Shown piece after piece: positions 3,384-48,290 of a stretch of 64,000 nucleotides of DNA. Within the stretch, counting starts at the first letter, position 1. Each line of letters starts with the position of its first letter. A program made the position numbers and the translations under genes. The notes beneath the pieces are model-generated. The model worked only from the letters and a program-made list of their open reading frames with translations, searched no databases and was not told where the DNA came from. Source of the stretch: Argopecten irradians (taxonomy: Eukaryota; Mollusca; Bivalvia; Pectinida; Pectinidae); assembly GCF_041381155.1 (NCBI RefSeq), contig NC_091144.1:34325262-34389261 (forward strand). Reading direction: 5' to 3'.

Positions 3384-3509
3384 TGACGTCATTTGTTTAT
3401 ATTTACATTTTCACTGCAGTCCCACTATATAACCTGACCAAGCGCAGTGGGCAGTCATATCCAATGGACTTCAATCGCTTATGATGACGTCATTATCATT
3501 GTGACGTCA
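3384..3509. promoter_or_regulatory. Cluster of three perfect CRE octamers
   Basis: TGACGTCA occurs at 3384-3391, 3485-3492 and 3502-3509, with a TATA-like CTATATAA between them at about 3424. CRE octamers bind CREB/ATF bZIP factors. No gene start is visible next to the cluster, and TGACGTCA also occurs in repeats elsewhere in this window, so a promoter role is only a possibility. Confidence 0.3.
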
Positions 3510-3632
3510 CAATTGTCGAGCTAGCGACACGTAAAACGGTTGTTTAAATGGCTGTTCCATTCTTAACGATAACGAATGATTAATTCATAATAGATTCAAA
3601 ATCCCTTGGTATGTCAGCAAAAAATTGTAACC

Positions 3633-3815
3633 AAATGTAAATATAAGCATTGAGTATCTTTCAGATGGCATTCATAACCAATATGAATGCCAACTGGACA
3701 GAGGCAAATTCAACATGAAGCGATAGCGCGCTTCATGGAATTTGCCTTTGTCCAGTTGGCATTCATATTGGCTATGAATGCCAACTGAAAGACGTTCAGT
3801 GCTTAAATAAATGTT
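3633..3815. mobile_element. Hairpin element family H, copy A
   Basis: A long imperfect palindrome with arms of about 78 bp and a 6-nt apex loop. The left end AATGTAAATATAAGCATT and right end GCTTAAATAAATGTT match the ends of the elements at 9643, 15754 and 21023. The apex reads AGCG-ATAGCG-CGCT. The arm sequence is not shared with those copies beyond short words, but the two arms within the element are nearly complementary. No coding capacity. Confidence 0.85.
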
Positions 3816-4921
3816 AGCTGGATATTTGATTTATTCAGATGTTTACGTTATTGTATCCGTAATTGCTACCCAAAACTTTGGCTTATTTGACCGTAAAACA
3901 CTGTTCCCGTTTTTCTGAAATTTTCGCAATATTTACTTCTTGTAATGAACCAACTTTTTAGATAATATTTTTGGTGCACTCAAACCAGACCTTTGGTAAT
4001 AACTGACATAGCCGAAATAGCATCCAAAATTTCGTCATTTTCTTTCTTAAAAATGTAGCCTAAATTTGTTGCATTTTGCTTAAATATGTGTGATCATAAT
4101 ATGTAATTATTTATACTTTTTAGAAAATTATATAGTTTGACGACATATAACATTATTTTGATACCGTTTTGGATCAAAAATAGAACCCTGTCATACACAT
4201 CTAATAGACAATAATAATTTGGTCGGAGCACATATAGACCCGTTGGACCTTTTAGATATTTTAAACGTATTTCAAGACTTTGTATTAATATTGCTTCATA
4301 TAACATTTAATTTTAATAAAATTAGTTCGTGGGGAAATTTTCATTATTCGTGAAAGAGGTACATTAAAAAGGAATAGAACTTCTTATTCTCCGTCAATGT
4401 TCCTGTAAGATATTTTATATATATATATTAAGAAATAATGTATCCGTTATAACTTTTGTTTTATTGTATATCATGTTTTTTATTGATCTTTATTTCTACC
4501 AAAACTTCACGTCTATTTCGAAGTCAGTGTTGGAGTAATTCTTTATCGACAGTTGATATAAAAAAATCTGTCACTGAATGTACCTCGGCAAAACCTAGAT
4601 ATCCTTATTTATCTAAGATGACGTCGAATGGTATTGATGCGTGGTTAATGTAATTTCTATTTCATGGATTATAATGTATTATCAAAAAAGTTTCAACTTT
4701 GACATGGTTTCATAAGCACCTTGTACATATTTTATTACCATTAGGATCCGACTCAACATTACAACATTATCAAAGCCTTCTCCCAGTACAATATACAATA
4801 TAAGGCAAAGAAAAGTAAAGGTCAATATAAATTATCATAACTGTGGCAGCATTGTTCTCCGAGTCAAAATACCAATATTTACAATCCTTCTCAGTACGAA
4901 TATTAAAATCTATCGCTGGTC
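3816..4921. other. Non-coding, nothing recognised
   Basis: AT-rich. Small open frames at 4094-4306 and 4456-4653 show no recognisable domain and no codon-use signal, and are treated as chance. Confidence 0.5.
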
Positions 4922-5286
4922 TTAAAGATGCTCCACCGCTGACAAATGGTATATTTTCACTATCAAAAACAGGAGCAGGCGATTTAGTATTTTTCTTCAG
5001 TAACAAAAGTTACTTACTTTACACCATTATAACCTTTGAAAAGTTTGAGCTTCTAATTTTACTTCAAGTTAAAATTACAAAAAAATAATTAATTGCATCC
5101 CGAAAAAATTCCGCGGCACTATATCCTATATGGAATGAAGTACTGATTGCGCATGCACCAAAAGCAAAATACATTATTTTATATTACTTTTTCTGTTAAT
5201 TAGACATATATATACACTATTAAATACCCATTATTGTTCAAGTGATGAATATCATTTATGCTCTGTCGGCGGTGGAGCATCTTTAA
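4922..5286. mobile_element. MITE family M2, copy 1 (365 bp)
   Basis: Terminal inverted repeats of 23 bp beginning TTAAAGATGCTCCACCGC at 4922-4944, mirrored at 5264-5286. The interior matches two other elements in this window in detail, including the word ATCAAAAACAGGAGCA: 58616-58999 (opposite orientation) and 60389-60748. There is no coding capacity; the 78-81-aa open frames inside are products of the repeat. Confidence 0.9.
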
Positions 5287-5405
5287 AAAATAATGCACAT
5301 TTAAATTACAATATTTAAATCTATAGGTAGATTTTCATCTCCCAAAAAAGTAAATTAATATCAATATTTAAATCTAAATCACTGAACCTGTCATTATTAG
5401 TAATA

Positions 5406-5533
5406 TAGTCAGTTACTGACCCCCTATAAAGGCATAGAGGGTCAGTAAGATTTATAGGGGCGGGGGCGTAGCAAGAGCCTCCTATACTTCTTACTGACAC
5501 TCTATGCCTTTATAGGGGGTCAGTAACTGACTA
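5406..5533. repeat. Long hairpin (arms about 55 bp)
   Basis: Near-perfect inverted repeat. The outer arm TAGTCAGTTACTGACCCCCT and its complement bracket a GC-rich apex (GGCGTAGCAAGAGCC). Its ends do not match family H, so it is a separate hairpin element or fold-back repeat. Confidence 0.85.
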
Positions 5534-5540
5534 CATAACG

Positions 5541-6254
5541 AATTTATCGCATCGAGGACCATTTGTTTGTTTCATTCATTCTTTGTTTCCTATTTCATAG
5601 TATTTGTTTGGTCAAGAATATGAAATCAAACTTAAATCATACTGGCGAATGATAACAAACAATCGACCCTTTTAAAATAATTGGCCTACTTCAGTAGGCT
5701 ATACATTTATTTATTCATTTATTAATTTCAAGAATTTTCAAATACACTGTATAAGGAACCTGCAGAATAATACTGAATAATTCATAAACCAACAATAAAT
5801 TCGACATTTCTATGTACACAGTAGGCCTACCTCAATACTACACCAGACCGTCTGTATATTGAAAGCATCGCAAACAAGAGTGACACAAACATCCATCTAA
5901 CATTTTAAGCACAATCTCCTTGATCATCTGTGCATTCTTGCTGAGATAATCACTGAAAAGTTATGCCGATAAATTGGTTGTATAGTGAGGATTGATCTGT
6001 GGATCCGAACACCTCCATTTGTTTATAATCACAGTCTAGAAAACGCTTGAATTGTTACGTTTGACTTTCGCCGCGTCATCAACTTTCAAACTGGCGTAGG
6101 GGAAGCAACTCGTATTTAAAAAAAATGCATTTCATTTCATTTGAAGTATTAAAACGATTAAAATTATTTTTTACACAACAATTAACAAGTAATATATAGT
6201 TTTACAGTAATGAAGTGGTATATTTAGTTGAAGAGAATGTGTTTAAATTTTGAA
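5541..6254. other. Non-coding, nothing recognised
   Basis: No gene, RNA or structured repeat is supported between the hairpin and the MULE-like MITE. Confidence 0.5.
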
Positions 6255-6733
6255 GCGAGGGCGATAGACTGGTTCCCGCCTCAGTTACCTCCCTTGCGTA
6301 CGCTTCACTGAGGACCGGTAGCGGGTAGCCATCTTGAGTGGGAATTCCAACTCCAGAGTAGTGCGCATCATTTCTACGCATGATATGTCATCATGGAGAC
6401 GGCTACTTCCGTTAAGAGAAAATAACGTCATTAACGTCGTTCCTATGAACACTCTAAACTCTGTTAGCACGAAATGATTTCAAAACTTAAGATCTTATTT
6501 ACTTTTGTTTATATATCGTTCAAATAAATTATTTATTCTTTACGTTAAGATCCGTCGCTTCGTGCGTAAAGGGGTTTCCCACGCCTAAAAAAAAGTGATG
6601 CAGGCGAACCGGATATGTAGATTGACCAATCAAAAAAATCATCATGGTTACCCGCTACCGGTCCCTAGTGAGCGGAGCGCAGCCTGGCGGAGAGTAGAGA
6701 ACTAAGGGAAGGGAACCAGTCTAGCGAGGGCGA
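6255..6733. mobile_element. MULE-like MITE with perfect 10-bp target duplication
   Basis: The element proper is 6265-6723 (459 bp). Its termini are inverted repeats TAGACTGGTTCCC (6265-6277) and GGGAACCAGTCTA (6711-6723), with a second inverted pair inside (ACCGGTAGCGGGTA near 6315; TACCCGCTACCGGT near 6650). It is flanked on both sides by the direct repeat GCGAGGGCGA (6255-6264 and 6724-6733). A 9-10-bp duplication is typical of Mutator-like transposition; the family assignment rests on that length only. Confidence 0.8.
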
Positions 6734-7395
6734 CAGCCGCCATATTGCACCATAATAAAATTTGCTAACCAGTGTTAGGGGGTCACCACGTGACGGCTCT
6801 CCGCCAATCATTTGGGGACATTTCTGTCCGAGGTGCGATAAAAAGTAAAGGCCTCTCAATATCAAATCCAGGGCAGTCAAGGAAAAAGCAGAATGCATTT
6901 TCACAAGGGTTGCCACATAAAAATTCAGCGGTTTCTACAACATTAACCCGAAGTACATCATATATCAAATCATTGGTGGCGCAGCTTTGTATGTATAATG
7001 ATGATTTCTACAAATGTTGTTGTTTGTGTCCATCATGCCGCTTCTGTATCCCTACTGACTTTAACCTACTCAATTTTCAAAGTGTAAAACATATATTTAC
7101 ATATTGGTCTTCTTTGGCATAGTAAAACGAGTCTGTATTCATATCACTGTAAGTCGGGTCAGGTAACATAGCAACGACAAGCATAGTTAGGCGGATGAAT
7201 ATTACAATCAAAATGGCCCCTGGCTATTTCTTTGTTTACTTCACGCTCCAACGAGATTTCATCAAAACAAAAACACATGTACTATGAGCTCCTATTTCAT
7301 AACAAACACAAACTATATGTACCAAAACACACAAAAAGTTCTACAAATAATATTATACCATTAAAAAAAAAAAAAAAAAAACATTTTTCCGACGC
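6734..7395. other. Upstream region of the recombinase gene
   Basis: A 116-aa open frame (6772-7122, +) and overlapping minus-strand frames have no recognisable domain. The stretch probably includes the promoter and 5' UTR of the gene starting near 7396, but no promoter element can be singled out. Confidence 0.35.
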
Positions 7396-9292
7396 ATGCC
7401 CTTCATCAACATAAAAAGAATCGTCTGCTCAACAATCATCATGATCATGGAGCAAAATATGTCGGACACTGATGAGAGTCTTAAAGACATGGACATTGGT
7501 CAGTTCAATGTCCCTTTGCCGGATGGGCTCAGTTTTAGTGATGAAGATTCCTTTGATGAGTTGTTTTCAAGTAATACTGTTATTGAGGCATCCGATAATG
7601 CTTCGAACATAGAAATTGAGAAAATGTTGAGAGATTTGAGACAGAGCGAAGACATCCAGATTCCCCAGCCAGGATTACCTGCTATGCCGGCGCCTAAGCC
7701 AAGATTTAAAAGTTTCTCAGAAGAAGAAATTGAAGAGTTTACCATATCCGCCCAAGCGAAAAGTACTCAAAAGAACACTTTATGGGGAATGAAAATATTC
7801 CAAGGTAAGCTTTGATCAAATGTGTAAAACTGCAATAAATAAATAAGGAGTTTAAAAAAAAAATGAAAAAAAAATTGCAGAAACCTGGTATCCAGCTGAT
7901 AGTCCTCTCTCGGTGTTGTTAAAATTTAACCCGTGTAAAACGCCGGAACAGCTTCGGAAATTACAAGTAATTGCATCTTCAATTATATCGCAATTATCAA
8001 GTAATACCGATTACACAGGAGAAAAGTAATATAAACTTTGTTTTTTGTTTTTTTTTCTCCCTGCAGACTGGAGTAACGAGGTATATGGGCATACCACAGA
8101 TATGCATGACATCACTGCAGAAAACTTGGCAACCAAACTAAAAAAATTCTACTGTGAAGCTACCCCTAGAAATGTACAAAAACGAAACGAAAATTTGACA
8201 GAAAAACAAGCCGAAGTCTACCATAAGAACACCATGATAAACATTAGAGCCGCCATCAACCGTCATTTACAAGACTTGAAAAGAGATATCGATATTGTTA
8301 GAGACAAACAGTTTAAACCCGCCAATAAAACCCTTGATGGCCTATTAAAAGTCCGAATGACAACAGGGGCATCCAGAGCAACAAAACACAAAGAAGTAAT
8401 ACCTGAAAATGACATGAAAAAAATCAGCACTTACCTGCAAGGGTCCCTTAATTCTCCTTACATCCTCCGACAGGCGGTTTGGTTTAATTTGGCGTTACAT
8501 TTCGTTTCTCGTGGGCTTGAATTCCACAAGCAACTGCGCTTAGATTCATTTGCGTTTTCCGAGGACGAAAACGGAAATTTTGTGACCCTCAGGCACTTAA
8601 CTCACCAAAAAAATCACACTGGAGGTATTTCAAAATCTGAGGATGAAAACACAAAAAAAATGTATGCTGTCCCGTCTGCCGGCCAGTTTTGTCCCGTGTC
8701 ATTGTTGAAATTACTGATAGATAAAACTGACCCATCAGCAGAAATGTTGTTCAATCAATATCACAAGAATGCTCTCCCAAATGCAGTTTGGTACACTAAG
8801 AAACCACTTGCTCCAAGAACATTCGTTGGCTTCATGCCAGAAATTTGCAAACACAGCGGTGTAAAAAAATACACCGCACACTGCCTCCGCGCGACGGCTA
8901 TTACTGCCATGAATGACTCGGGCTTTGAAGCGCGACATATCATGTTCATGTCTGGACACAGGTCAGAAGCTGCTATACGATCCTACAATCGAACATGCTC
9001 TAATCAACAAAAGAAATCGTTGTCAAATACACTGTCTTGCTTAGCATCTGGCGAAACTCCTCAAAATTCAGCTTCAAATTCTGAAATCGTCCCACGACCA
9101 CGTGTGTTACAACCTTCCCACACAGTCGCACGTAATCTTGACGAAGTTAGGCCTAGTACTAACCTGATGCCGAATGTCGGTGCCTTGGATGAAAACAAAG
9201 CGTATTCCTCCTCCGTTATGTCTAATTATACTTCCACGGGGATGCTAACTAACTCCGTATTCCACGGATGCACATTTAACTTTTCCAACTGA
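7396..9292 (+). CDS. Crypton-type tyrosine recombinase (DUF3504/ZMYM-QRICH1-like), two exons
   Basis: Exon 1 is 7396-7804 (donor GTAAGC) and exon 2 is 8067-9292 (acceptor CTGCAG). Joined, they give 544 aa. The junction is phase 1 and rebuilds the typical WGMKIF-QDW segment at the start of the core-binding domain. Residues 1-115 are acidic and low complexity. The rest matches the phage-integrase-like domain of Cryptons and of vertebrate ZMYM/QRICH1/KIAA1958-type genes. Visible catalytic residues are Arg285 (SRGLEFH), His408-x-x-Arg411 (HCLRAT), His434 (SGHRSE) and the nucleophile Tyr443 (RSYNR). A 100-residue polar tail follows. The start could instead be the Met at 7441 or 7447. All key residues are present, so it may be an active Crypton or a domesticated recombinase-fold gene; the sequence alone does not decide. 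It is flanked by hairpins at 5406 and 9643. A likely poly(A) signal lies at 9500. Confidence 0.8.
7881..8028 (+). other. Possible alternative exon inside the recombinase intron
   Basis: A good acceptor (AAAATTGCAG) at 7871-7880 precedes a coding-looking stretch. Joined in phase to exon 1 it reads ETWYPADSPLSVLLKFNPCK and continues to a stop at 8026-8028. Use as a terminal exon would give a short isoform lacking the recombinase domain. Splicing on from its GTAATA into exon 2 would be out of frame. It has no obvious homology to the main protein. Confidence 0.3.
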
Positions 9293-9499
9293 CGAATCCA
9301 GCTCGTTTTACAAATGGCGTGTCTCTGCAGTGTCACGCGCCGCTTCACAGTGACAGTGTTATCAATGCGCGGACTTGCCGACAGTTTGAATATTTAACAC
9401 AGCGACGTATTAAAAGGCGTTTAATTCACTTTCGGAAACGATTAAATATTTGAAGAAAAACAAATTGTGTTGAATTTTTATTATTTAAAACTCGAATGA

Positions 9500-9505
9500 A
9501 ATAAA
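9500..9505 (+). terminator. Candidate poly(A) signal of the recombinase gene
   Basis: AATAAA about 210 bp after the stop codon at 9290-9292, in an AT-rich stretch. It is the first canonical hexamer downstream. Confidence 0.4.
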
Positions 9506-9642
9506 ATTTTACGAAAATCGTAACAAAAACCCAGGGATTATATTTACCCAGTTCCAGTAGCTGCATAGACTACCGTAGCTACTCTACTTAGCAACCAATA
9601 TATTGTTTCAAAACCTTTAATATAGCTACTTTAGAGGACAAA

Positions 9643-9815
9643 AAATGTAAATATAAGTATTGAAAAGCGTTTTTATTGTGTTTACGGTGGTATGAATGCA
9701 ATGTGGATACAGTCATATTATACATGTAGCGCTAACGCGCTACATTAAATATGACTGTATCCACATTGCATTCATACCACCGTAAACACAATAAAAACGC
9801 TTTTCAATCCTTATG
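9643..9815. mobile_element. Hairpin element family H, copy C
   Basis: An almost perfect palindrome with arms of about 75 bp. The left end is AATGTAAATATAAGTATT and the apex is AGCG-CTAACG-CGCT. It lies about 350 bp after the recombinase stop codon. The left end and apex match copy A (3633) and copy E (15754), but the arms are largely private to this copy. The right end is the least conserved of the four. Confidence 0.85.
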
Positions 9816-10321
9816 TGATGGCACATCCAGAAGTAATAAAATGATTTTTACGTCATAACATGTAACACGATACTGAAGTAATTTGCGGCGAAATGACTCG
9901 ATAAAAAACATATCGATAACTATTACGCACATTAAAACTTACACTTTTGAGTTACGAGAAAAGTTTATAAAAGCTTATTACCACCAACACCCAAATGTAT
10001 TAGAGTTAATTATGTTATTTTCATCTAAAAATGTAAAAAGCTTAACTTTACTGGGAAAATATTTGAACAGAAAAAAAGAAAATTCTCATAAATCTGTAGT
10101 ATATCATACTCATTTATTAGTCAATTTGTTAAATTTGATATGAAGTATATCGGAATTATCCTCCGCCATCTTGAAACTAACAACGAATGTATTTATTATG
10201 TGTTAAACCTATATGCTGTATTGCATTTGGAAAATTAAAAAAAAAATGAAACTTGAAACTTTTGACTCTGAAATAAATGATTTAAATTATTTGATAATTC
10301 AAAACTATCATTAGATAGTGA
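9816..10321. other. Non-coding, nothing recognised
   Basis: An 86-aa open frame (9883-10143) is AT-rich and shows no domain. A candidate 8-bp target duplication of the following hAT element (GATAGTGA) ends at 10321. Confidence 0.45.
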
Positions 10322-12480
10322 CAGGCATGGGTTCAATTACATGGTAATGTAATTAATTAAATTACACATTACATTTCAAAATGGCATTACCATTACCATT
10401 ACCATTACATGTATTTTTCAATGTAATTAATCAAATTACCATTACTTTGCCAATGTAATTAATTAAATTACACATTACTCTTCACTCATAAATTTTATTT
10501 TATATACATATATATCATACAAAAAGCAAAAATTGATCGTCATCATAATTGCATATCATGACTATACAATGCACAAAATACATTATCTAATAGATATCCA
10601 TATATTGGTCAAATTTCAATATATATATATGTGTATTTACAATATCAAATGGACATTTCATTCCAGTGATCAATATGCTTGACATTCCAGCATCAAAGGT
10701 TAACTGCTAGGTTAATATTTATCTAGCAGATTACCTTGTTTTACTTTGTTAGTGAGTACTTGTTCAGATTTTGGAGTTGCATTTGATCATCATGAGGGTC
10801 TCAAACGTTTTGTCAGATAACTGCATCTATCTGGTCGGAAAGTTTTGCCAGCAATGCTGAAAAGTCTTTCCACGGGAGCAGAGGTAGCAGGGATACATAA
10901 GTATTTATTTGCTAGTATCGAAAGCAGAGGATATTTCTATGAATTTTACTTCCAGAACACTAATGGATCAGTTGATCTATCAACACATTCATCTGCAAGG
11001 TAAATGTCAACCTCACTGTTAACTTGAGATGGGTGTCGTTTTCTAGATGGAGTTGATGGCAGGAAACTGAAAAAGTCACCAGTTTTCAGTTTTTTCATTG
11101 GTGGAGAGATATCACTCTCGCTTAAGGTATGCCCAACAGAAATATTCTGCACTCTTTTCCTCAAAAGTTGTATATTTGACTCACTTTCGTTTTGATTCTC
11201 ACACCAAACTGTTGTTTTAAATCTTGGATCTAAAATTGTTGCAAGAATGTATGGTTCTTCATGCATGTAGTGGGTGAGGCGTGAGTCAATAGAAGTCTTG
11301 AGGGAAGTAATAGGTCTAGAACTGTAATCATTGGACAGTGAGTTTATTTGGTGTCTCAAAACAAGAGTTACTGGTATAGTTAAGCTACCACTTACAGCCT
11401 TTTCTTTCTGAACAATTACAGTAGCTTTTTCAAAATGTTCCAAAATCTCACATATCTCTGACAACAATTTTCGTTCATACAATGTAAGTTTGAATTTGCA
11501 CTCAATTTCATTCGGCTTTACCTCTGGTACATTCAGAACAGATTTTACCATGTGTAATTGTGAATTCCACCTAGTAGCAATTAGCTGCCTGAAGCCTGTT
11601 TTCAGTTTCTAGAACTTCAGAGGCAAGGATTGACTTTCTTACAAAAGATACAATGTTAGAGGCCCTATTGATAACATTTTTCAGGTGGGGGCTGCAATGT
11701 TTTAAACCGTCTATTACAACAAGCTGTAAAGTATGTGCATAACATGTGGCATGGGATGGCAAACATTCAGACAAAACATCATCATCACAACTGACTTCAA
11801 CGTTTGACAGATCATCATTTTCACTCTGTTTTCATCTTCAATTTCATTGTTTGACTTTGCTTTGCTTCAAACCCTGGTAAAGAAAAGGCTCATATCATAT
11901 TTGCAACATTGTCACTTGTTACACATACAATTTTAGAATCTACCAAGTTCAAAGCATGCTAATGCTTCTCCATACTCATTACGAATATTGTCAGAGGTAT
12001 GTCTACCTTTGACACGCTTACAACATATCATTACAGACTTCAATGTCCAATCAAGGATATAATGTCCTGTGATACCAAGGAATCCCTTCATTTGTCTGCT
12101 GGACCACAAATCAATTGTTAAACACACATTCTCTGCGTGTTTCAGCTGTTGGGCCAGGTTACTTTTTATTTCAGCACATTTTTCATGTAGTAGCTTGGAC
12201 GATAAATGGCGTCTGCTTGGAACTTGATATTTTGAATCAGCCTTGTCCAAAAGATTTCTAAAGTCTGGACTTTCAACGATCGACAATGGGAGTAAATCTC
12301 CAGCGATGAAATGAACTAAGACATCAGTTATTTGAATTTGTCGAGGATCAGTTGGTGAATATTTTGAAGTTCCTTTAAAGAACTGCATGAGTTGTGGACT
12401 CTTGCTTGGAGTAGACTCCACACTAACTGGGGCCTTTGTACCCAATGTCATATCTCTATGTTTTCTCTAAAATAGAGACA
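10322..12480 (-). pseudogene. Decayed hAT-family (ZBED-like) DNA transposon
   Basis: The low-coordinate end starts with a hAT-type terminus (CAGGCATGGGTTCAATTAC), followed by subterminal repeats of GTAATTAATTAAATTAC to about 10480. Transposase pieces on the minus strand, in order: 12451-11933, with the first catalytic Asp in CLTIDLWSSRQ; then VTSDNVANMI near 11900, carrying the second Asp, in another frame; 11774-11571 (ATCYAHTLQLVV); 11551-10946 (ILDPRFK); and the C-terminal dimerisation motif APVERLFSIAG near 10850. At least three frame changes and an in-frame stop before the last segment show that it is dead. An N-terminal BED finger and the opposite terminus were not found. There may be an intron acceptor just upstream of 12451. 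Confidence 0.85.
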
Positions 12481-12867
12481 AAAGCTTACTTTAAAACTAT
12501 GAATATGTTGCTTTTATTGAAGAGACACTGATATTTAAAAGTGTAAAATATTGTACTGTTTTCAGGACTGCATGATAATAAATTTATGAATTTAAGCAGG
12601 CATTATCAAAGGAAATTAATGTTCCATTTATACTATTATATTTTTAATGTTTTCTATATGTCAATGAAATGTATACAATATATTTTTCATCATCATAAGA
12701 TTAATTTGTATATTAATCAAGTAGTGACATAACATTTATGCTTTTTTACATAATCAAGATATCTTGTTGCTTTGCCAAGTATAGTCACTGACTTAATTGC
12801 ATCATCTATTACAATGGATGTGACGATCATGTGGTTGATATACTAAATGTGACTTGTACGGTGATTT
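12481..12867. other. Non-coding between hAT relic and duplication unit 1
   Basis: AT-rich, no gene seen. The missing 5' end of the hAT element should lie here but is not recognisable. Confidence 0.4.
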
Positions 12868-13140
12868 GGTATCAGTGCGATAAAGAGACTGGGAACAAAT
12901 TTACATAAGGTTGTGTAACTATCTACTCGTTTAAACCCCGTTCTTTTATATTCATCAGGTACATAGCGTAATTATTGAATTTCAACTTCAGCAGTCGTTA
13001 TTCTTTGGGTATCAATGCGATAAAGAGACTGGGGACTTTACATAAGGTTGTGTAACTATCTACTCGTTTAAACCCCGTTCTTTTATATTCATCAGGTATA
13101 TAACGTTATTATTGAATTTCAACTTCAGCAGTTGTTATTT
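12868..13140. repeat. 150-bp tandem duplication
   Basis: Two adjacent copies of a 150-bp segment, starting at 12868 and 13018, each containing GCGATAAAGAGACTGGG and TTTAAACCCCGTTCTTTTAT. The corresponding place in unit 2 (about 23260-23420) has a single diverged copy, so the tandem doubling is specific to unit 1. Confidence 0.85.
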
Positions 13141-13532
13141 ATTTTATTCATGGACAGAAATATATCATGTGATATTTAAAAAAAAATTCTTTTTGCATAC
13201 AACTGAAGAAATTAAAATGTGTTTGAGCAACTTGATCAAGAGGTAAACGGCAATGACATTTTGTCTCACCCTCGTTTTTATTTAGTTTTATTAGGTCTGT
13301 AATGAAACTAAAGTCTTAGATATATCCCCGAAACTGAATTCCTAGTAAAGAATTTAATTAACTAAATTTCCAATAGAAAGTATCATAAAATAAATATGAA
13401 ATAAAATAAAAAGAAATGAAATAAATAATAAAAATATCTATGTTTTGATGTAGTTTATTAGGTTCGTTTCCCTAGAAACAGAATTTTTCCTTCACTTCTA
13501 TAATGCGTCGTTTTATGGCAAATCTCCAGTTT

Positions 13533-13611
13533 AGCAATGCTCCAACTTCGCTAGCCAAGGGTAAAAGCAGAGTATCGGCTTATACCCTTGGCTAGCGAAG
13601 TTGGCAATGCT
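13533..13611. repeat. Hairpin (arms about 30 bp)
   Basis: Arms 13533-13563 and 13583-13611 (core AACTTCGCTAGCCAAGGGTA) around a 19-nt loop. It lies 100 bp before the conserved upstream block of HSD copy 1. Confidence 0.85.
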
Positions 13612-13699
13612 CATGAAACTAAATATTATTAAGGTATTACTTAACGACGCCGGTGTCAACATTTTCGTTTATGTCCAATGTTTTACAAAGTGAAAATCA

Positions 13700-14235
13700 C
13701 AGTTGGAGCTCGGTCAAGCTGTTTCTATTTGGCGACTGTATAACATCATATACCTAGAGGGATAAATGAGAGAAAAGATACACGTAATTTTTGCTGAAGT
13801 AAGTACACTATATGTTTATTAATTGTTTTATCACCTTCTTTTTACGTATTGGTCAACATCTAATAAAATACCATTCTGATGAAAATACAGGTCTCCATGA
13901 AACATAGAGCATTAAGGTACATGTACGTATACGTAGCGTATACATGTATATGGAGAGCTGTATCTAATCGGACTGATAAGATACTATCAAAGTTAAAGGG
14001 GGATAACTCTAGTTGACTGGCATGCTATTTCCCCTCTGTTATTGGAGTGCACCGGGCTCACATGTCTACAAGCGCACGTGTTTTGGTTATATAAGCGGCC
14101 TCTTCTGATTGTTGACAACCACGTGGTGAGTATAACTGCACCGATTGATCCTTACTAGTCGGGGACAGGTTCATTCCCATACAGCCATAAGCATTTCAGA
14201 TAAGTCTATCAGTTCCACAGGTTGTATGTGTGTTA
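13700..14235 (+). promoter_or_regulatory. Conserved upstream block of HSD copy 1
   Basis: Three patches are shared with 25145-25570 upstream of copy 2: GCTGAAGTAAGTACACTAT (CTCAAGTAAGTACACTATG there), a CTCTAGTTGA patch, and ATCAGTTCCACA with its surroundings. This conservation stands out against unalignable DNA around it, so it may hold a promoter or a 5' non-coding exon (AAGTAAGTAC looks like a splice donor). The function is inferred only from conservation. Confidence 0.45.
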
Positions 14236-15579
14236 TATTAACCGGCTAGTTATAGGTCAGTAAAGGGGGGTACACATATGTGTGTGTCCCTGTCAGATGG
14301 ACAGTCCAGTACTGAGATTATCAGATCGGGCAAAACCATCAACTAAACTGATTACATTCATACGAGAGCTGTGGCTCTTACGGTCTATAATGTGTTCCCA
14401 GCTGTTTGTAAGACTCCTCTATAGTAATTGACAATTCGTTCTGTGTAATATTTGCACGAAAGGTTGAACACACGAAATGCGCAATATTTACAGGAAAGGA
14501 TCGAATGACAAAACATTGGAATCAGCGAGTTTAAGCTGACCGATTACCTAAACAGCCAAAGAAAGCATGGACTTTGCCTAAATCTATTCACTATTCGCGT
14601 CCTACATATTGACCGCTAGCGGTTATATAATACAACAATGTAGTATTTGAGTAAACTCTTTTGCTTATCGAATTCACCCCTGGAGACATAACAATAGACC
14701 CTTCTCATCAAAGACTAGACTACTCCATTATGAAGTTTCAGGGGTGAATGCTTTAAATGCCCACCTTATGGTATTTCTAACCATACTTTAACTGTAGAAA
14801 TTAGATTGATGTCCATAATATACTATGTAGAGCGATTTGATACTAGATCGTGTATATATAAAGAGAGATGGATGATGGTATTCTGAATGACATTAAATAC
14901 CCTATGTACATGTATGTGTGTGATTATTTACGTTTTATGCCTTCGTGCACCTTTTATCACTCATGGGAGTTGAGAGATGAATGCACTCGACACCTTTTTA
15001 TCTTTCTGTATCTCCAGTATAGAACACCATGTTTGATCAAGGTATGGGACTTTCTAAATGATTTGTTTACGTTAATAGACATTTGTATAAATATTTAAGT
15101 TTAGGAGAAATATAACGATACAGAGACGGTGCTCGGTAAACGTATGAACATAATATATGAATGTATTGTAAGTATATCAAGAACATGCATATGTTCCCCG
15201 TGATAATACCAAAACAGTATGGGTACGTGTGTTGTTCTAAGGAAAGGGGCGTCTCTCAATACATAGTCAGTTTTAATAGCATGACTAAAATCATGTTATA
15301 TATAATATGCTTTGTTGCGAAAATTTGTATTAAAAAATGTTGGTGCTACTTATTGGAAGACAAAAGACCCGAAATGTAAATAAGTATTAAGATTTCATGT
15401 TTTTTTCTTCACCTTTTAGGTCAGTAAGACAATGTTTTATGGTATACATGTAGCTTGTGATAAATTTTATATATTATTGATTTGCAACGAAAATTTGTAT
15501 TAAAAGAAATGAAAGTGCTATTTATTGGAAGACAAGTTTACAGATGTATAATGATTTGGATTTTTGTTTTACTTTTCAG
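14236..15579. other. Non-coding upstream of HSD copy 1 exon 1
   Basis: Probably an intron of the 5' UTR or promoter DNA. Short open frames at 14868 and 15161 are not supported as genes. A pyrimidine-rich acceptor (ACTTTTCAG) ends the stretch at 15579. Confidence 0.45.
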
Positions 15580-15677
15580 GTCCATATTACCTTGTAATAA
15601 TGTAAATTGTCACATATAACAAATTTCGTTTGAATGAAACTAAAGCTGACTGGATCTGTTGAGGAGTGAAGTAAACG

Positions 15678-18600
15678 ATGTGGGGCAAAGTGATTGCAGT
15701 ACTGGTTGGAATTCTAGCTGGATTATGGTGGATGCGTGGGTTTGATGAAGGTGAACGTTTATTTAAACATTAAACTGTCTTCCTATGGCATATATGGTCT
15801 ATATATATAGATGCCAGAGCTTTGCAGACAATCTTCATAATGCGCGCTAGCCCATTATGAGATGATTGTCTGCAAAGCTCTGGCATCTGTGCGCGCATTA
15901 TGAAGATTGTCTGCAAAGCTCTGGCATCTGTATAGACCATAGATGCCATAGGAAGATAGTTTAATGCTTATATTTACATTATCAACTCTTTTTGGATCCT
16001 GTACTTAACGTTATTTAAGCTAGACCAGGAAAACCGTTCATCAACGACGATTTCGTTCACAAGATGGAACAGCCATTTTGACGGCGATCAGTTGACGTCA
16101 CCACGTCAGCATTAGTCACGTCATAATAGTCACGCTTTGAGTGTCAGTTTTGCCGCCATATACTTCACTTTGCCTTGGTTAGTTTATATAGTAGAAGTGA
16201 CAAACAAATGTAAATAAACATGTATAAACTTCACGGGATCATAATTTGACTAGCCACCAGACCCTAAATTGTTGAAAAGACTTTCTCAGCAGTGTTCTTT
16301 ACTAGATTATCTCCCACTAGTTTGAAACTTTCTAGAAAGAGACATATAGTAGTGACAGTAATAATCAAGCCAAATTTTAGTATTTTATTCCCCAATATTC
16401 TGGAGACTGGTGGCCATAGTCTAGGTCATAGAAATCTTGAGTATATCTCAACGTCAACATGGGTGTTTTTAACTTACATTGACAGCTTTAATATGTAAAC
16501 TGAAATACTGTTAAGTGAGGTGATATCTCAATTATATTCATTTAAGTCAACCTTCTTTCGCCCCAGTAATATTGATAACTGGACAAAATGAAGCAATATC
16601 AATTTTCTATTATCCTTTCCGACTATGTATTAAGAATGGTTAATTTCAAATTTCTATCTAATATGTACTTGTAATGTAAATACGATATAATTTAGGGGTC
16701 ATCCGCGGCAAAAAGGTGCTTGTGACGGGAGCCTCTACTGGGATTGGTGAACAGTTAGCCTATCACTATGCTCGGATGGGCGCCAGTGTTATGGTTACTG
16801 CGAGGCGTGCGCAGAGACTACAGGAGGTAAATAAGCCTACGTCACGTCATGTCGCTCATGTCATCTGCATAATAAAATTTTCTGATATCGGATTCTTGTG
16901 TCGACATTATTATGAAGTATATTCAGAAACTCTTGTCTTTTTGATATACATGTGGTGAATTTATATTCTTATCACTTCCGTTTTATTCTTTGTCTAAAAT
17001 ATTTTTATTTTGATCTTGGCGTTGTTTAAAAGGTCGTGGCCAAATGCAAGGAGCTGGGAAATCCGGACGCCATCTTTGGTTACGTCAATGGTGACATGTC
17101 AAATATGTCCTTCACGGAACACTTAATAAAGGTAAATGTTAACACATAGAAATCAAAATAATTTTAGAATGTGAAAGTTACGCGACAAATTATATATTGG
17201 CTCAAAATGTCTCAATTCCATTAGAAAAGTGAATTGGTTTAGAGTATATTTCTACATGCATATACCCTAACAATGCTATTACTGATAAATTCAGTAACGG
17301 AATATTGGGAATATCAAAATATCAATGAAAGTTTTTTAAGGTATTTTGATCACATACATCTATGTTGTTATCTGAAATTTATTGAACTAGTGTCGATTGA
17401 TTCTAAGAATCATCACTCTTTCTTAAAGTGTTAATCACACCTCAAACTTCATTTCTCTGAGGCCAAAAAAAATATATGTATGTTTCAGGTTACATGACTG
17501 GAAAAAATAGGGTAGGTCGGTCGGGAATTTATTTTATTTTATTTTTTATTTAATTATTTTAGGAGAGGTTGGGGAGGGGTTGAGTTGCTTTAATTACTAC
17601 ATTACAAAGTAATTTGTCTTTCTGGCTTTAGGCTGGCTAGAAGTCTTTTATTTCTCATTACCTTAATTGAACCTTATCTGGATAAACTTAAAGCCAGCGT
17701 AAAAATCTAAATTAAAAACTTCACACACTACATTTTTGTTTTGAAAAAAGTGTAATAAAATAGGTAGGGTCGGAGGCAAAAACTAGAGTAGGTAGGGGTA
17801 CCTGAAACATACATCTTCTTTTTTGGCCTGATCATTTTCAGATTCCCAGGTTGATTAGCAGATGCTATAATGTTCATAATCGAAGACTTGATGATGTGCC
17901 TCGACTATATAAAGTCAAGCCAATAGCCAATACTAGTCATTATTGAAAGTATTTGGGAGGTAGCTGTACTTGTTTCCTCGCAAATGACTTGTCAAATGGT
18001 CAACGTTTTCTCCATTATATCGCACTCAACGTGACCAACTTACCTGTTATGCGTCTTAATTTTGTTTTATTATTTTACAATTGAACCCACAGGGACCTGA
18101 CACGATTTTTTAACCAAATGTATACATATCAAGCGTATGAACTCGGCGGTCAAGAAAAAGAGACCTATTTTTTAACCGTGATTTTTTTAAGATAAACGGC
18201 CACTTTACACCAGTGACGCATGTCTTACGTTAAAGAGATCTAATATATCTTTCCAATGAATGCTTGATGAAAAACATTGGCCAAGTATTGATGAAGTTAT
18301 GGCCTGATGAATCGGGAAAGTTACGAAAAATATGCTAGGTAGACATTGCCTAGTCCGCTAAACCTGCCTATATTATTAGGCTTTTTATTTTTTTTTTTTT
18401 TGCCTAATATATATATTAGAAAAAAAGCCTAATAATATAGGCAGGTTTAGCGGACTAGACATTGCCCTGTCCGCTTGAAATGTCGTCTCGCCTCTCATGG
18501 GTACCTCAAAAACCAAGCCGAAATCACATAATCTACTCTTGTGGTGGTTAATAGTGCCCATGACTGTGTTCATCCACAATCCCCTGTGGAGATGCCATGT

Positions 18601-21600
18601 CCAATTCTTTGTAGAAACGCCATTTAAACACCATTGTGCACACTTATTTTAACCATTACTGCAATGTTAATTTTTTTCTCGGAATGATTCTCGATTTTAC
18701 TGGTTGTGACTGCATTATACAAATTATGTTGTGTTGCGCTTGTCGGTAAAATGGAAAAGTGTTCCGAAGAACATATATGTATGAAGCCTATATTGTTTGT
18801 TAAAATCGTGCCATGTCCCTGTGATTTGACCCAGATTTGTATGTCGCTGATCAAAGAAAAGAACGATAATTCTTCTGAGTTTATGAACGATAACCTAACA
18901 CGGGATTTTTAGCACGATCGTAGCTTACAGCATGACCCCTGGTTTTGAAAATCACGTAGTGAACAGGATATCTGAAGTTATATATCATTAACAGCAATGA
19001 AAGGCAAAGACATGTAGTTATAGATGAGGACGGAACTAATAAAACTTGGCGACAAACAGACATAAACTGTATTTTTGAGGAATTAAAATATATTTCATTC
19101 CTTCTTTGTCTATAGTAATATTTAAATGAAAATCACAATGCATAATGGGGAATTATGTGGCCGACGGTACCACTTCATACAAAAGAAATATAATTTAAGA
19201 AAAGATTAGGCAATTAAGATACATATATATTTAATATTTTTCTATTCTTAAATATTTTACTCAAAGTGTCATGACATCATAATCACCTGTGTTGGATAAT
19301 CTATATTCCCTAGACAGTGTCACAAGTCAGGTGCCCTAGTTTCATTTAGATGCTGCTTAAGGCCTATATGTGTGTGTAAATATGTTACATATACCCTTTA
19401 CTGTTGAAGGGAAAAACAATGGTTGAGAGTTAATTAATGTATTTTGTTATCAAGGCTCTGGGAAAGGCTCGACTGTAGCTGCCAATGTCAATTTGTTGAC
19501 CCGTAGTACACATTCTGTTGTGCCGAGACCCAGCCAATATAACTTGTGTGCATTGTTATCTTAATTGTGAAGTTTATATTGTGTTGAAGAAAATGAGATA
19601 AAAGTTAAGTAATTAATTTCAACATATTGAAGCTAATTCAGTTTACCTCTTATAACCAGGACAGCGAAACATCTTTGTTTTTTTGTCACCTATAATGAAT
19701 TAAGCCCTCCTCTAGCAGGCATCCTTTTAAAAGTCTAGTCAACTTAACACTTTGATTATACATATTTGTACATGTGTGATACCGATAAGCAATCATACAG
19801 GAAAAAGTTTCCCAAATCATTTTTTATCATATTACAATATTCTGATAAACTTGAATTAACAGCATTGTTAAATGTCTGAATTTTATTACATTTTCTTATA
19901 TTAAAGTTAAGTTGATGCTATTTGAATTGTCCCAACAATATTCACACTAAGAAGATGCTGCTTCTGCATACGCTCACACTAAAATCCTGCTTAGAAAAAA
20001 AATGTTCTGCACAAATCATTTTTTTTATAAAACTGTTGATTTATATATAAATTAACATTTGATAAATAGCATCTGTCTTGAAAGAATTGTATGATTGTTT
20101 TAATACCAACATTGATAACAAATACCAGTGGTCATTTGAATTGTCCTAATTATTTTTTAAGTTAAACAGTGCATATGAGTGATAATCAAGAATATTAGTC
20201 AAAACATATCATTGAACATTAAATAACTGGACCATCGTGCTACGAGACCATCGGCCTCTTGTTGTTAAATATTCTTTTTTTTTTCGTTTCTAAAGGAATC
20301 TACACAAAGAATGGGAGGTTTGGACTACTTGCTACTAAATCACATACTCTCACCAAACCTGGGGTTCTGGAAAGGCGACAAAGACGATATGGCTCACTTA
20401 GACAAGGTGTTTGAAGTGAACTTTAAAGCCTATGTACATCTGGCGTCCCACGCCCTCCCGGCATTAGAGAAATCGGGAGGTCACATTGTTGTACTGTCAT
20501 CATTTGCAGGTAACGGAAGCATGAAAATGCATTCAAACTTGATTAAAGGAGGGGGCGAGATATTGGAAAAAATACTTACTTGACAGGCATTGGAAGTATA
20601 ACATTATCATGTGTAATTATCAAATAGTTAAGTATAGCAATGGAATGAATTGAATCTGTTTCTTGTAATATGTATTGTCCACAAGGCTTTGCCTATTGCG
20701 ATTATTAGAAAACAAAAATATAATTCCGTTTCTGACATTACAATGTATGTGTTTCAAGAATTTGATTCGATAATATTTCATATTCGGTAAACTATTATGA
20801 TTACTTTTTATTTGTTTTCATACTAAATCCGACTTTGTGATTGGCAGATTCTTTTCCTTCATATAATATAAAGAAAAAATCCGAGAATGGGGCGAAACCC
20901 CGAGGTTATCATAACATGACGATAGAGACGTCGACGTTGCGTATTGATTTAGAAAAAAAAAATCCATTGGAAAATCAAAAGAGTCGTACGTTTTAACGTA
21001 TTTTATAAGTAGTCTGAAAAGCTAATAATAAGCATTGATTTAACTATTTTTAACTTCGTCGGGTTATGAAATACATTTTGTTTGCAAACTTTTGTGAGAA
21101 TTCACTACGCAGATACACAGTTTGCAAACAAAATTTCTTTCATACCATGATGAAGTTAAAAAATAGTGACAGTAATGCTTAAATAACGAAAAAGATTTAA
21201 ATACAAGTAGAACAGCACAAAATAGAGAACAAACGAAAATCAGTTCAAGCGGAATAACTCCTTTCTTAATATGACAAATAATTTGCCTATTTTATTGGCT
21301 TTGTACAGAGACATTTCAAATATGATGACTAATTTATCTTAATATATTTATTTTTTGACCATATGACCCATAGTCATCATGTTTTGTCCGTCGTCGTTCG
21401 CCGTGCGCCGTGCGCCGTGCGCAACTTTTCACATTTTGAACTTCTTCGCAAGTTCAACCAATACGATGTGGCTAAAATTTGTTAGAAATGATCCTGACAT
21501 GGTCCCGACCACTTGTTCTTTTTTGACATTCTTTATGTATTTTCTGTTACTGTCCACAATTAGTTTCGGTTCGTTGACCAATGATTACATAAATGATACA

Positions 21601-38344: not shown

Positions 38345-38700
38345 CTTGTACGTACAAGATAGTATCTTGTACGTACAACTTAGTAATCTTGTAACTTACA
38401 ACTTAGTATTTGTACGAACAAGAATAGTATCTTGTACTACAAGATAGTATCTTTTTGTACGTAACAAGTTAGTATCTTGTACGTACAAGATAGTATCTTG
38501 TTACGTACAAGTTTACTATCTGTGTACGTACAAGGTTAGTATCTTGTACGTACAAGTTAGTATCTTGTACGTAACAAGTTATTATCTTGTACGTACAACT
38601 TAGTTATCTTGGTACGTACAAGTTATTAATCTATGTACGTACAACTTAGTATCTTGTACGTACAAGTTACAGATCTTGTACGTACAAGTTACTAATCTTG
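38345..38700. repeat. TACGTA-rich tandem repeat in HSD copy 2 intron 3
   Basis: About seventeen degenerate copies of a unit near 21 bp containing the palindrome CTTGTACGTACAAG plus TTAGTATC. Each unit can fold on itself. Intron 3 of copy 1 lacks it. Confidence 0.9.
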
Positions 38701-44611: not shown

Positions 44612-47600
44612 TCATATTTTGCTTAAAATACCGATCTCTTTGAGATAATTAAAAATACGATTATGTCTCACGGCATGAAACAAAGTGTACATGTCGGAGA
44701 CATCATAGTACTTATCTCGTATGTGTTTAAAATCAATACAATGCAATAAAATATGCTCCACTGTGAGAAGAGAATCACATGCATGGCATGTAGGAGGATC
44801 CTCCCCTCTCAATAGATAGGAATGTGTAAAATATGTGTGTCCAGTTCGGAGCCGAGAGAGAACAACTTCCTCTCTGCGGTCTCTCCGACTGGACAGTTTA
44901 GGATTAAGTGTAGGTTGAATTTTAAACAGTTTATTGTTTGTTTCGGTAGACCACCTTTGTTGCCAATGGTGTTTGATGGCTGACTGAATTGAAGGTTTGA
45001 TGTCGGTATATGGTAGTTTCAAATCTGTTTGTGCTAGGCGAAGAGCAGTCTTAGCTGCTTTATCAGCCTGTTCATTCCCCTTTATACCCACATGACTGGG
45101 AATCCAGAGATAAGTAATTTGAGTTTTAGAAGATAATCGAAATGTTCGGATTAAAAGATTTTGGATTAGAGTATTTCTAGGGCTTCTTGATTTCAAAGCC
45201 TGAAGAAACCGAAAGAGAGTCTGAACAGATGATTGCCTTTTCAATGCGGTGTTCTTCGATATGGTCAAGCGCCAGACCGATAGCACATGCTTCCGCAGAG
45301 AAAATGGAGGCAATATCCGGGAGTCGGATAGAGGAGCAGTGATTAGATGTACAGCATGCTGCCGCAACATTATCACCATCTTTTGATCCGTCAGTGTAGA
45401 TCTGAACATGGTCAGGGAAAGCCCTAATGCACTCCCGAAAGGAGGATTTGTGTTCTTCGGGTAATGCACTGGATTTTGCCCTCTCATGTAGAGATAAATT
45501 GATATCAGGTGTTTGAATGAGCCATGGTGGTACATCCGATACGGTGTACTCGTCAATGGTGTCGAAAGTTATATTAAGTTCCAGCAACAATTTTGAAATT
45601 CTGATGCCAAATGTTGGTATGAGCTTTTGATTTTGTGTAAATATTTCTTGATATTGTGGATTGAATAAAAGGTTAAATGCAGGATTTTGGGGGTTGGATT
45701 TCAGTTGAGCAGCATACTGTAAGGATAATTTCTTTCGTCGATAGTCTAGAGATGGCTCATTAGCTTCCACATGGAGACTCTTCACAGGTGTTGTTCGTAA
45801 AGCTCCAAGTGCGAGACGCAGTCCCTGATTCTGTATAGGGTCAAGCATCTGTAGATAGGAGCTGCGAGCCGATCCATAGACAATAGAGCCGTAGTCAAGT
45901 TTTGATCTTATAAGTGCCCGATAGATACGTAGAAGCATTTCACGGTCTGCACCCCAATCAGAATGGGAAAGAACTCGTAGAATGTTCAGCGCCTTCGAGC
46001 ACTTATCCTTCAGATGTTTGATATGTGGAACAAAGGACAGTTTCGAATCAAATATTAGTCCAAGAAATTTAGTTTGTTCAACTACTGGAATTTTAATTCC
46101 ATTGAGTGTGAGGTCAGGATCATTGTGTGGTTTTCGTTTTTGACAGAAGTGCATACAGACAGTTTTTGATCTTGAAAATCTAAAGCCATTTTCGTCAGCC
46201 CAATTTTGTAATTTGCCTAAACATTGTTGTAGTTGCCGTTCTATAGTGTGCCTGTTTTTTGATCTGTAACAGATCAAGAAATCATCCACAAACAGAGACC
46301 CTTCCGTAGATTGGCCAAGACATTTGGTTATGCTGTTAATTTTTAGTCCAAAAAGTGTGACGGACAAGATACCACGCTGAGGGACGCCCATCTCCTGTGT
46401 TTCTGTTTCTGAATAAGTTGAACCCGTTCGAACTTTGAAATGCCTGTCAGATATAAAATTTGATATAAACTTTGGCAAATTACCACGTATACCGATATCA
46501 TGGAGATCGTTCATGATTCCATATTGCCAAGTTGTGTCGTATGCCTTTTCAAGGTCAAAGATACGGCCACAAGATGTTCTTTCTTGGCAAATGCTTCTCG
46601 TATAAATGTTTCTAGTCTAACTAAGTGGTCTACCGTTCCCCTGCGGTTTCTAAAGCCGCTTTGCAAAGGACTTAAAATATTGTTTGATTCCAGGAACCAA
46701 ACTAATCTGGTATTTATCATACGTTCTAGAGTTTTACAAATACAACTCGTCAATGAAATAGGACGATAGTTATTGGCATCAGTAGCATCTTTCCCGGGCT
46801 TCGGAAGGGGTATAATAGTAGATTCCTTCCAAGACTCGGGAATTTTGCCAGAAGAGTAAACTTGGTTAAATATAGTTAAAAGACATTTTATTGAAGAGTC
46901 TGGTAATTGTTTTAAAAACATATATGGAATTTCATCTGGTCCAGCTGCCGAGTCCTTTGATTTCTCAAGGGACTCGAGCAATTCTGGTATCTCGAAAGGG
47001 CTATTGTAACTTTCACTATTGGAGGATTTAAAATTAAGACGTCTCTTTTCCTTTTCCTTTTTAAATGTTTGAAATTTTTTGGAATGATTTTTGATGGATG
47101 AATTTTTAGCAAAATTTTTGGCAAAGGCGTCAGCTATTTCGGATTTTGAAGAAAATATTTTATTGTTGTTAATGAGGTGGGAGGATGGTGTTGCTTTTCT
47201 TTTCCCACTGATTTTACCAATCATTTCCCAAACTTTCCTCGAAGATGTATTGGAATTAATGTTTGAGACGTACTCTTTCCAAGTACTTTTCTTGTCGGAT
47301 TTGATAGACCTTCGAGCTTTTGCTCTCCAAATTTCAAAATTGTTATAGTTTGAGACGGTTGGCGAAGCTAAGTACCGCCTCAGAGCGGAATTTCTACCAG
47401 ATCTATTGAAAAATGAATCATTTGAGAGACGAAACTTTGTTGGTTTTGGCACGGATTTTGGTATGGTTTTTGTAGCGATAGAAGTGAGCGCTTCTGTGAA
47501 AATTTTAATGGGGTCATCGAGGTTCAAAAATTTATCCTCAATGAGCTCCTCTGCGCACAAATTTTTAAATTGAACCCAGTCCGCCTTATGTAAATTCCAA

Positions 47601-48290
47601 CGAGGAATCGGCTCCTCAAGTTTTGGTGACCCTATGTTTTTTAATATAATTGGAAAGTGATCGCTTCCACAAAGATCATCGTTGACCCTCCAATCATAAT
47701 CCAGAAGAATTGATGGATGGCACAACGATAGATCAATGTGGGTAAGCGAGCCAGAGGCAGGGTGCAAATATGTTGGGGCATTGGTGTTATAAAGACATAA
47801 GCTGTTTTTATTAATAAAATCTTCGATACGTCTACCTCTATCGTCAGTGCCTGGGGAGCCCCAGAGGCTATTATGACCGTTAAAGTCACCCATGATAATA
47901 TATGGCACTGGTAGTTGTGATACGATGTTACTCAGTTCATCACAACTAAATGGAGTATTTGGAGGTAAATATATAGAACAGACTGTTATTTTTCGGTGAA
48001 GAGTTGCGCTTATAGCAACAGCTTGCAAGGTGGTATCTAGCTGAATGTGTCTGTGAGGAACGTTTATATGCACCGCCACCGCCACACCACCTGATGGGCG
48101 GCCACCTGTTGTTGGAGTTTTGGTGTATAGTGTAAATTGTCGGAGATTGATGGTGTCTTTCAGCATTATTTCTTGAAGGCAGAATATGGATGGGTTTTTT
48201 TGTTTGTATAAGATGTTTTAATTCTTCTATGTTCGCTTTAAATCCGCGTATGTTCCATTGTATGATAGTGTTTGTCTCTATATTGATCCT
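44612..48290 (-). pseudogene. LINE ORF2: endonuclease, reverse transcriptase, RNase H
   Basis: The frame begins near 48290, overlapping the ORF1 end, with IIQWNIRGF, the usual start of an APE endonuclease. Further motifs are GDFNGHNSLWG and GSDHFPI (endonuclease), PGKDATDANNYRPISL (RT), FVDDFLI as the catalytic box, IYTDGSKDGDNVAA and WIPSHVGIKGNEQADKAA (RNase H), and a C-terminal CHACDSLLTVEHILLHC zinc-binding segment. Frame breaks: an extra base near 48200 before EIMLKD; a missing T near 46553 in the DLEKAYD motif; and a change near 45230 inside RNase H, where one of two expected repeats of CATCTGTTCAGACTCTCT seems lost, as if by slippage. The residues themselves are well preserved. Confidence 0.85.

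Follow-up and report, generated by a model that had tools for sequence, protein, structure and literature searches.

Long hairpins in a scallop genome are probably the 3' ends of Crypton-type tyrosine recombinase transposons

The 64,000 nucleotides of Argopecten irradians DNA analysed here (contig NC_091144.1, positions 34,325,262 to 34,389,261 of the forward strand; hereafter the window) contain four long hairpins, one of which closes a complete element of about 2.7 kb whose gene reads as a Crypton-type tyrosine recombinase. The hairpins, at 3633, 9643, 15754 and 21023, were described in a sequence-only reading of this DNA, which took them for one family with conserved ends and apex and with arms private to each copy. 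All four are present, and their arms are complementary within each copy, at 86-99% in an inverted-repeat scan: 3641-3711/3738-3808 (89%), 9653-9719/9748-9814 (99%), 15804-15847/15891-15934 (98%) and 21047-21090/21119-21162 (86%). The internal duplication ascribed to the 15754 copy is likewise visible in the sequence.

The complete element, called D, is autonomous and spans 7092..9814 on the + strand: it runs from a 5' end with TATTTACAT at 7094, through the recombinase gene, to a 3'-terminal hairpin (9644..9813, +) with the loop TAAC and two unpaired left-arm bases 9-11 bp from the loop. In eight other copies in the genome the match to the window begins at 7089-7101 (in seven, at 7089-7092), at TATTTACAT, a 5' motif common to D and to the families A and B introduced below; three of the eight have the hairpin in line (C12:26881984-26884710, 2727 bp; C14:30354047-30356895, 2849 bp; C12:31680998-31683705, 2708 bp). 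Inside the element, an open reading frame (ORF) of 139 amino acids (aa; 7396..7815, +) is probably the first coding exon, that is the N-terminal part of the recombinase, with a putative donor at ~7805, and an ORF of 415 aa (8045..9292, +) is the main exon, coding probably from ~8067. With splice sites deduced from the sequence, we read the two ORFs as exons of a single Crypton-type tyrosine recombinase. The 415-aa ORF matches the Pfam families DUF3504 (1.4e-10) and Phage_integrase (2.2e-9); in NCBIfam, XerA/XerC-like matches lie far below the cut-offs and are accompanied by one unrelated match. Against the solved integrase 3nkh, itself a weak match (E 0.027), the HxxR and GH motifs align and the tyrosine is one residue off. 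The D protein carries SRGLEF, HCLR, GH and RSYNR, its relative at L119 keeps the same residues, and the protein of a family E element has the same series (SRGLEF, HCLR, GH and, for both proteins, RSY[N/S]R), giving R, HxxR, H and Y, which we take to fill the R-H-R-Y tetrad. This is the name of the Crypton catalytic tetrad in the available text of the survey by Kojima and Jurka (2011; PMC3212892). Two further D copies are open across the main exon, at 99-100% identity. The recombinase ORF stops 352 bp before the hairpin, and by ORF scan it is the only gene of the element: the other ORFs of at least 80 aa that touch 7092-9814 are one of 81 aa in antisense and one of 116 aa (6772-7122) that lies almost wholly outside. 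Among the ORFs of the D element there is none of RepHel length and none for a reverse transcriptase or RNase H; an Rfam search gave no match.

The setting of the four hairpins becomes clear from the genome, a single eukaryotic assembly of 845.8 Mb to which all copy counts refer. The shared left end far exceeds chance: allowing up to 3 mismatches, its motif has 15,970 matches against 5,757 for the reversed motif used as control, and by this excess of about 10,000 the non-autonomous relatives number in the thousands genome-wide. A descriptor with free arms, AAGCATT-N-GCGYTARCGCGC-N-AATGCTTAA, finds 60 exact matches and none in the control, so the proposed combination of ends and apex is real as well. 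Sorted by eye on their printed left arms, these 60 fall into three groups, 44 in family A, 10 in B and 6 in C; D, D2 and E are absent from them because their ends or apex differ. We read 30 loci with the exact left-end motif and 52 of 60 loci matching the 9643 and 21023 hairpins (most of the 8 not shown are the same places on the other strand), the D and E hairpin searches having returned 595 and 1783 first-look candidates. The hairpins form families with shared arms: A (that of 3633), B (15754), C, D (9643), D2, whose hairpin is ~87% identical to that of D, and E (21023). All four window hairpins have relatives with the same arms, so these are not private, and genome-wide the copies group in just the way that the sequence-only reading had set against its own proposal. 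Because copies share their arms within families, a process that rebuilds the arms copy by copy is unnecessary.

Nor do the elements begin where they had been thought to. In all-against-all comparisons within families, A, B and E have their left border ~235-240 bp ahead of the hairpin and D2 has it ~1 kb ahead; in four of five D loci the distance is more than 1.3 kb, reaching 2.55 kb in the full element (L043, in which the seed was not found, was left out of this comparison). The fifth D locus, L034, has only 170 bp in common with the others and seems, from its position, to belong to a D copy on C3 that was split by an insertion. Since the borders are far upstream, each hairpin is the 3' end of a longer element, and AATGTAAATATAAGCATT, proposed as the left end, is internal. 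Free-standing hairpin elements, which we had also considered, are rejected by the conservation of the left flank within families. The right end of the 9643 copy, thought to be eroded, is the regular end of its family: CAATCCTTA ends all five D loci read, the window copy being one of them. The three other window hairpins belong to short non-autonomous elements: one of family A (~410 bp, 3400..3807, +; hairpin 3635-3806), 90.3% identical over 411 bp to L008; one of family B (~460 bp, 15758..16216, -; hairpin ~15758-15980 with the internal duplication), 78-81% identical to L016 and L022 over the full length; and one of family E (~390 bp, 20796..21185, +; hairpin ~21023-21185), 81% identical to L066 over 401 bp. 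Elsewhere, elements are found end to end: at L071 an E copy abuts directly onto the 5' end of an A copy, and at L057 a D2 copy directly onto the 5' end of a second D2 copy.

The link between recombinase and hairpin extends beyond D. Searched with the D protein, the genome yielded 518 candidates. Scores were obtained for 101, and among the higher entries of this list we examined eight relatives, chosen for a long match reaching the C-terminus and not at random, with ~800 bp downstream of each. Six of the eight have a long hairpin within these 800 bp: two carry one of the family A type, another pair, near-identical and separated by 5 kb, carries that of family E, and the remaining two represent new families with the loop TAAC (L093 and L096, with the apexes GCGCCC-TAAC-GGGCGC and CGCCC-TAAC-GGGCG). 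The E-type recombinase element carries the E 5' end TAATTAATTTTTCTTTG, and the A-type element a related 5' end, TTACATTCGTCACTATATAACC. The E-type protein matches DUF3504 (7.5e-8) and Phage_integrase (9.6e-9) and is 48.8% identical to that of D; identities at the three codon positions are 0.54/0.67/0.36, a pattern that is as expected for a protein under selection. The arms of D and E are mutually unrecognisable despite the homologous recombinases. With proteins half identical and hairpins placed alike, recombinase and hairpin have therefore been kept together over a long divergence.

What is kept in the hairpins and what varies can be read from ten family consensus or representative sequences of 163-175 nt with 69-78 pairs. 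As identity over the longer arm, left and right arm of a single element score 0.89-0.97 and arms of different families, D and D2 counted as one, 0.51-0.75, where shuffled left arms give a mean of 0.575 (sd 0.034, maximum 0.652, 300 shuffles). The A and D consensus arms (0.68), and more generally those of A, D, F and G (0.66-0.75), are above every shuffle; compared with other families, B and E arms mostly do no better than shuffled ones, the exception being the left arms of B and F (0.66). The loop is TARC in the consensus or representative of A, D, D2, F and G and TAC in E; C has a larger loop that contains TAAC, the B consensus has lost TARC and the window copy of A reads ATAGCG. The apex GCG-MTARCG-CGC had been put forward for three of the four window hairpins; at 21023 the apex is of the type found in family E, around CCGCTACGCGG. 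A further feature is a left-arm excess of 1-3 unpaired nt, mostly 7-12 bp from the loop, which the predicted structures of hairpins of usable length show in 34/34 copies of D2 (16 distinct sequences), 4/4 of D, 31/32 of E, 7/9 of A, 4/7 of B and 3/3 of C. The idea of constant ends and apex with variable arms is thus right between families, in which base, loop and bulge are largely kept and the arms diverge and stay complementary; between the copies of one family it fails.

Divergence with preserved complementarity is measured best across families. In an alignment of seven hairpins (D, D2, A twice, the A-type recombinase element, F and G), 95.7% of cells are paired against 77.8% after shuffling, and both sides have changed in 41 of 77 pairs against a shuffled mean of 21.9; neither value is attained by any of 500 shuffles, and a shift of the partners by 1-3 columns lowers the pairing to 32-40%. 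Part of this covariation follows from our choosing the structure that these sequences form, and the count of both-sided changes is the stronger point. Within families the signal is weak: the 32 hairpins of E have 27 cells (10 events) with both-sided complementary change, where 12.5 coincident changes are expected, and 6 cells with both-sided non-complementary change, and the 8 of A have 22 both-sided cells (13 events), where 10.1 are expected. Families B and C were excluded from the pair counts because their copies are decayed, and five hairpins (L024, L025, L028, L029, L019) were left out because we could not place both of their ends, as were those outside the length limits. The pairing signal is thus strong between families and weak inside them. 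Selection for pairing explains the evolution of the arms with no need for their rebuilding; slow copying from arm to arm perhaps acts in addition.

The base of the hairpin holds a second regularity. If the last and the first bases of an element are joined, as they would be in a circle, the result matches, as reverse complement, a site within the element at the left base of its own hairpin: the fit for representative ends is 20/20 in A, 19/20 in B, 18/20 in D and in D2, and 19/19 in E. In the window D element this internal site is at 9643..9662 (+; 18/20). The 5' end of E differs (TAATTAATT), and the internal site of E has changed along with it. A hairpin flanked by such sites has almost no asymmetry, and insertion by one side or the other would in principle be possible. 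Insertion in family A is one-sided: in 721 copies the body lies where it is expected, and the reverse arrangement (or a perfect tandem junction) has 10 matches, all at the maximum of 3 mismatches, whose sequences resemble normal 5' ends next to AT-rich flanks. The practical absence of the reverse arrangement in A led us to reject a symmetric model that lets the hairpin insert by either of its bases; the bulge is an obvious candidate for what breaks the symmetry. At a nested insertion of D2 into D2 (L055) the empty site can be seen, and the target duplication does not go beyond 1-2 nt in this single case. The base after D2 copies is T in 15 of 16 cases.

Taken together, we conclude that the hairpins are probably the 3' ends of Crypton-type tyrosine recombinase DNA transposons and of their short non-autonomous derivatives, and that the hairpin probably functions in the recombination site; the identity of the elements as tyrosine-recombinase elements is well supported. 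That the recombinase acts on the hairpin in the form of a folded single strand is plausible, and we propose it tentatively. One DNA strand would fold, so that the element 3' end CAATGCTTA pairs with the right half of the internal site, whose two halves are AATGTAAATA and TAAGCATTG; the 5' end TATTTACATT, complementary to the other half, would pair beside the 3' end. The internal site would then be a splint on which both ends meet, rebuilding the circle junction, which the recombinase could cut and join. Parts of such a scheme are in use in DIRS-1, Helitron2 and integron attC sites. The bulge near the loop would make the otherwise symmetric hairpin one-sided and would account for insertion from a single side. 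Base, loop and bulge would be held; the arms, which need only complementarity, would for that reason drift by paired changes.

Several results weigh against this interpretation: (i), two of the eight recombinase relatives lack a clear long hairpin, one having a hairpin with 30-nt arms and the other short inverted repeats only; (ii), no autonomous element turned up for B and C, for which no dedicated search was made; (iii), the left-arm excess is found in only 4 of the 7 usable B copies, two of them with 8 nt, a sign of decay; (iv), setting aside the two recombinase elements in each family leaves E with 17 both-sided cells (6 events) against 11.2 expected and A with 5 cells (3 events) against 2.7 expected, only just above coincidence; (v), the border is uncertain by 0-2 nt, GCTTAA being the usual reading ahead of the flank at A, B and E 3' ends and an additional TA being present at the 5' end of D2, so that the junction may be one or two bases longer; (vi), the predicted structure of the recombinase (two sequences), with a mean predicted local distance difference test (pLDDT) score of 35, is too poor to use.

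The elements could instead be Cryptons that move on ordinary double-stranded sites, the hairpin being used otherwise, for instance as a stabilising or silencing hairpin in RNA or as a cruciform that eases replication. Covariation would also suit an RNA structure. We nevertheless consider this rather unlikely: in five families the element end and an inverted copy of the junction both fall at the hairpin base, the hairpin is retained by non-autonomous copies of ~400 bp, and the left-arm excess and the loop are largely kept where the arms are free.

A rolling-circle origin, with ends of the Helitron2 (Helentron-like) type, the 5' and 3' inverted segments as asymmetric terminal inverted repeats, the hairpin as terminator, a RepHel encoded elsewhere that moves the copies and the recombinase as a passenger, appears improbable. 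The layout fits, in that Helitron2 elements, in the available text of Bao and Jurka (2013; PMC3627910), have a short 5' inverted repeat 0-2 bp from the end, its partner directly upstream of the 3' hairpin and a preference for a 5' T; in addition the genome holds Helitron Rep genes (104 matches), and this, with the resemblance of the ends, is a further point against our own conclusion. A weak 5' inverted repeat with arms of 4-6 bp is present at a similar place in four of five family representatives, but taken family by family it lacks significance: shuffled sequences do as well in 22 (A), 413 (B), 163 (D), 357 (D2) and 94 (E) of 500 cases. The 3' repeat of Helitron2, moreover, lies ~20-30 bp from the end, against ~160 bp here. 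The D element is complete at 2.7 kb without an ORF of RepHel length, the hairpin is at the same place next to recombinase genes whose proteins are about half identical, and for each of A, D2 and E there is a relative that codes for a recombinase and bears this kind of hairpin. Movement in trans of the Helitron2 type is disfavoured because, in the elements examined, a recombinase and not a RepHel sits between these ends; non-autonomous Helentrons had been our first reading, rejected once the recombinase was found inside the D element.

Rebuilding of the arms in each copy, through frequent arm-to-arm conversion or template switching, is what the sequence-only reading had envisaged, and it now looks highly improbable. 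Its best support comes from 34 young, near-identical D2 hairpins, in which 2 both-sided complementary changes, private to L049 and L058, stand against 0.1 coincident changes expected. The same set, however, has 20 one-sided changes, 19 of them distinct, that have persisted, and one of the two changed pairs is at a position that varies one-sidedly in three other copies. Arms are common to the copies within families, and the left-arm excess, a feature that conversion would remove, has survived. These 34 hairpins, like 30 of those of E, are among the best-scoring of the 595 and 1783 candidates and are biased to intact copies; substitution rates of D2 ends versus arms were not used as evidence because the copies were picked as best matches to the hairpin. 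Rebuilding is largely refuted as the main cause of arm evolution, slow conversion perhaps playing a part. Unrelated families of miniature inverted-repeat transposable elements (MITEs), their ends alike by chance or convergence, are hardly credible: B and E arms are mostly no nearer to other families than shuffled arms, but the A, D, E, F and G hairpins occupy the same place in elements with homologous recombinases, the A, D, F and G arms are homologous (0.66-0.75) and target duplication does not exceed 1-2 nt in the one case read.

The window holds other repeats. Another family, unrelated in sequence to the hairpin elements and with several dozen genome matches, mostly at 86-96% identity, occupies 5393-6267 and 6723-6843 and begins with a hairpin of its own (5396-5543, 63-nt arms, 90% complementary). 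A hairpin at 18344-18464 (43-nt arms, 95% complementary) lies outside families A-G. At 44612-48166 (-) there is a fragment of a retrotransposon without long terminal repeats (non-LTR), with an Exo_endo_phos_2 endonuclease, RVT_1 over two ORFs and an RNase H match, and at 38455-38611 and 49294-49401 short palindromic repeats overlap in clusters (ACAAGTTAGTATCTTGTACGT; GTGCACTA).

It appears unsettled by what means animal Cryptons identify their ends and proliferate. If these elements recombine as a folded single strand, with the internal junction copy as splint, they would gain a strand-specific, replication-coupled way to multiply, and their end structure would be tied to the internal circle-junction sequence of DIRS elements and to the ends of Helitron2. 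Integron-like recombination would then also take place in animals, and an internal circle-junction sequence would be common to DNA and RNA elements with tyrosine recombinases. A large class of short repeats in this genome is also explained, which annotation, we guess, would probably label as unclassified MITEs. Several families with intact recombinase genes now have their ends, hairpin, bulge and junction copy defined, which makes the question directly testable.

The elements resemble animal Cryptons in some features and differ from them in others. As in CryptonA (PMC3212892, available text), the sole gene is a DUF3504-type tyrosine recombinase, non-autonomous copies outnumber autonomous ones and there is no notable target duplication (one case here, L055). 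For animal Cryptons the same survey, as far as its available text goes, reports no terminal repeats; the present elements differ in their 3' hairpin with paired arm evolution, the left-arm excess and the inverted internal copy of the end junction. A long self-pairing tail with such a copy is not described for animal elements of the tyrosine-recombinase kind in the literature searched: among the matches listed, taken by title and start of abstract, with Repbase and subscription journals outside this scope, we found no description of hairpins in animal Cryptons. MITEs, with terminal inverted repeats, target duplication and a DDE transposase, differ from elements with a one-sided terminal hairpin and recombinase-coding relatives. 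Helitron2 likewise has a T and an inverted repeat at its 5' tip, the other half of the repeat directly preceding the 3' hairpin (Bao and Jurka, 2013; PMC3627910, available text), but has a RepHel and a short hairpin where these elements have a tyrosine recombinase and a hairpin of ~165 nt. DIRS-1, likewise an element with a tyrosine recombinase, has within it a sequence complementary to its two ends, proposed in the available text of PMC5633606 as an aid in forming a circle; here there is no reverse transcriptase, there are no long terminal repeats and the internal site is at the base of a terminal hairpin.

A further parallel is bacterial. Integron attC sites also have arms that vary while the ends are conserved, the sites being shorter, and the CTX phage integrates through a folded strand. 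In attC, a palindromic site that is folded from a single strand, extrahelical bases on one side are important for recognition by a tyrosine recombinase (PMC3053210, available text). The hairpins differ from attC in having a conserved loop, and their extrahelical bases are predicted and their action as a folded strand is proposed. By analogy with integrons in bacteria, and still more tentatively than the action of the recombinase on the hairpin, we suggest that these elements could be eukaryotic tyrosine-recombinase transposons that recombine as a folded single strand, with a built-in inverted circle junction as the splint.

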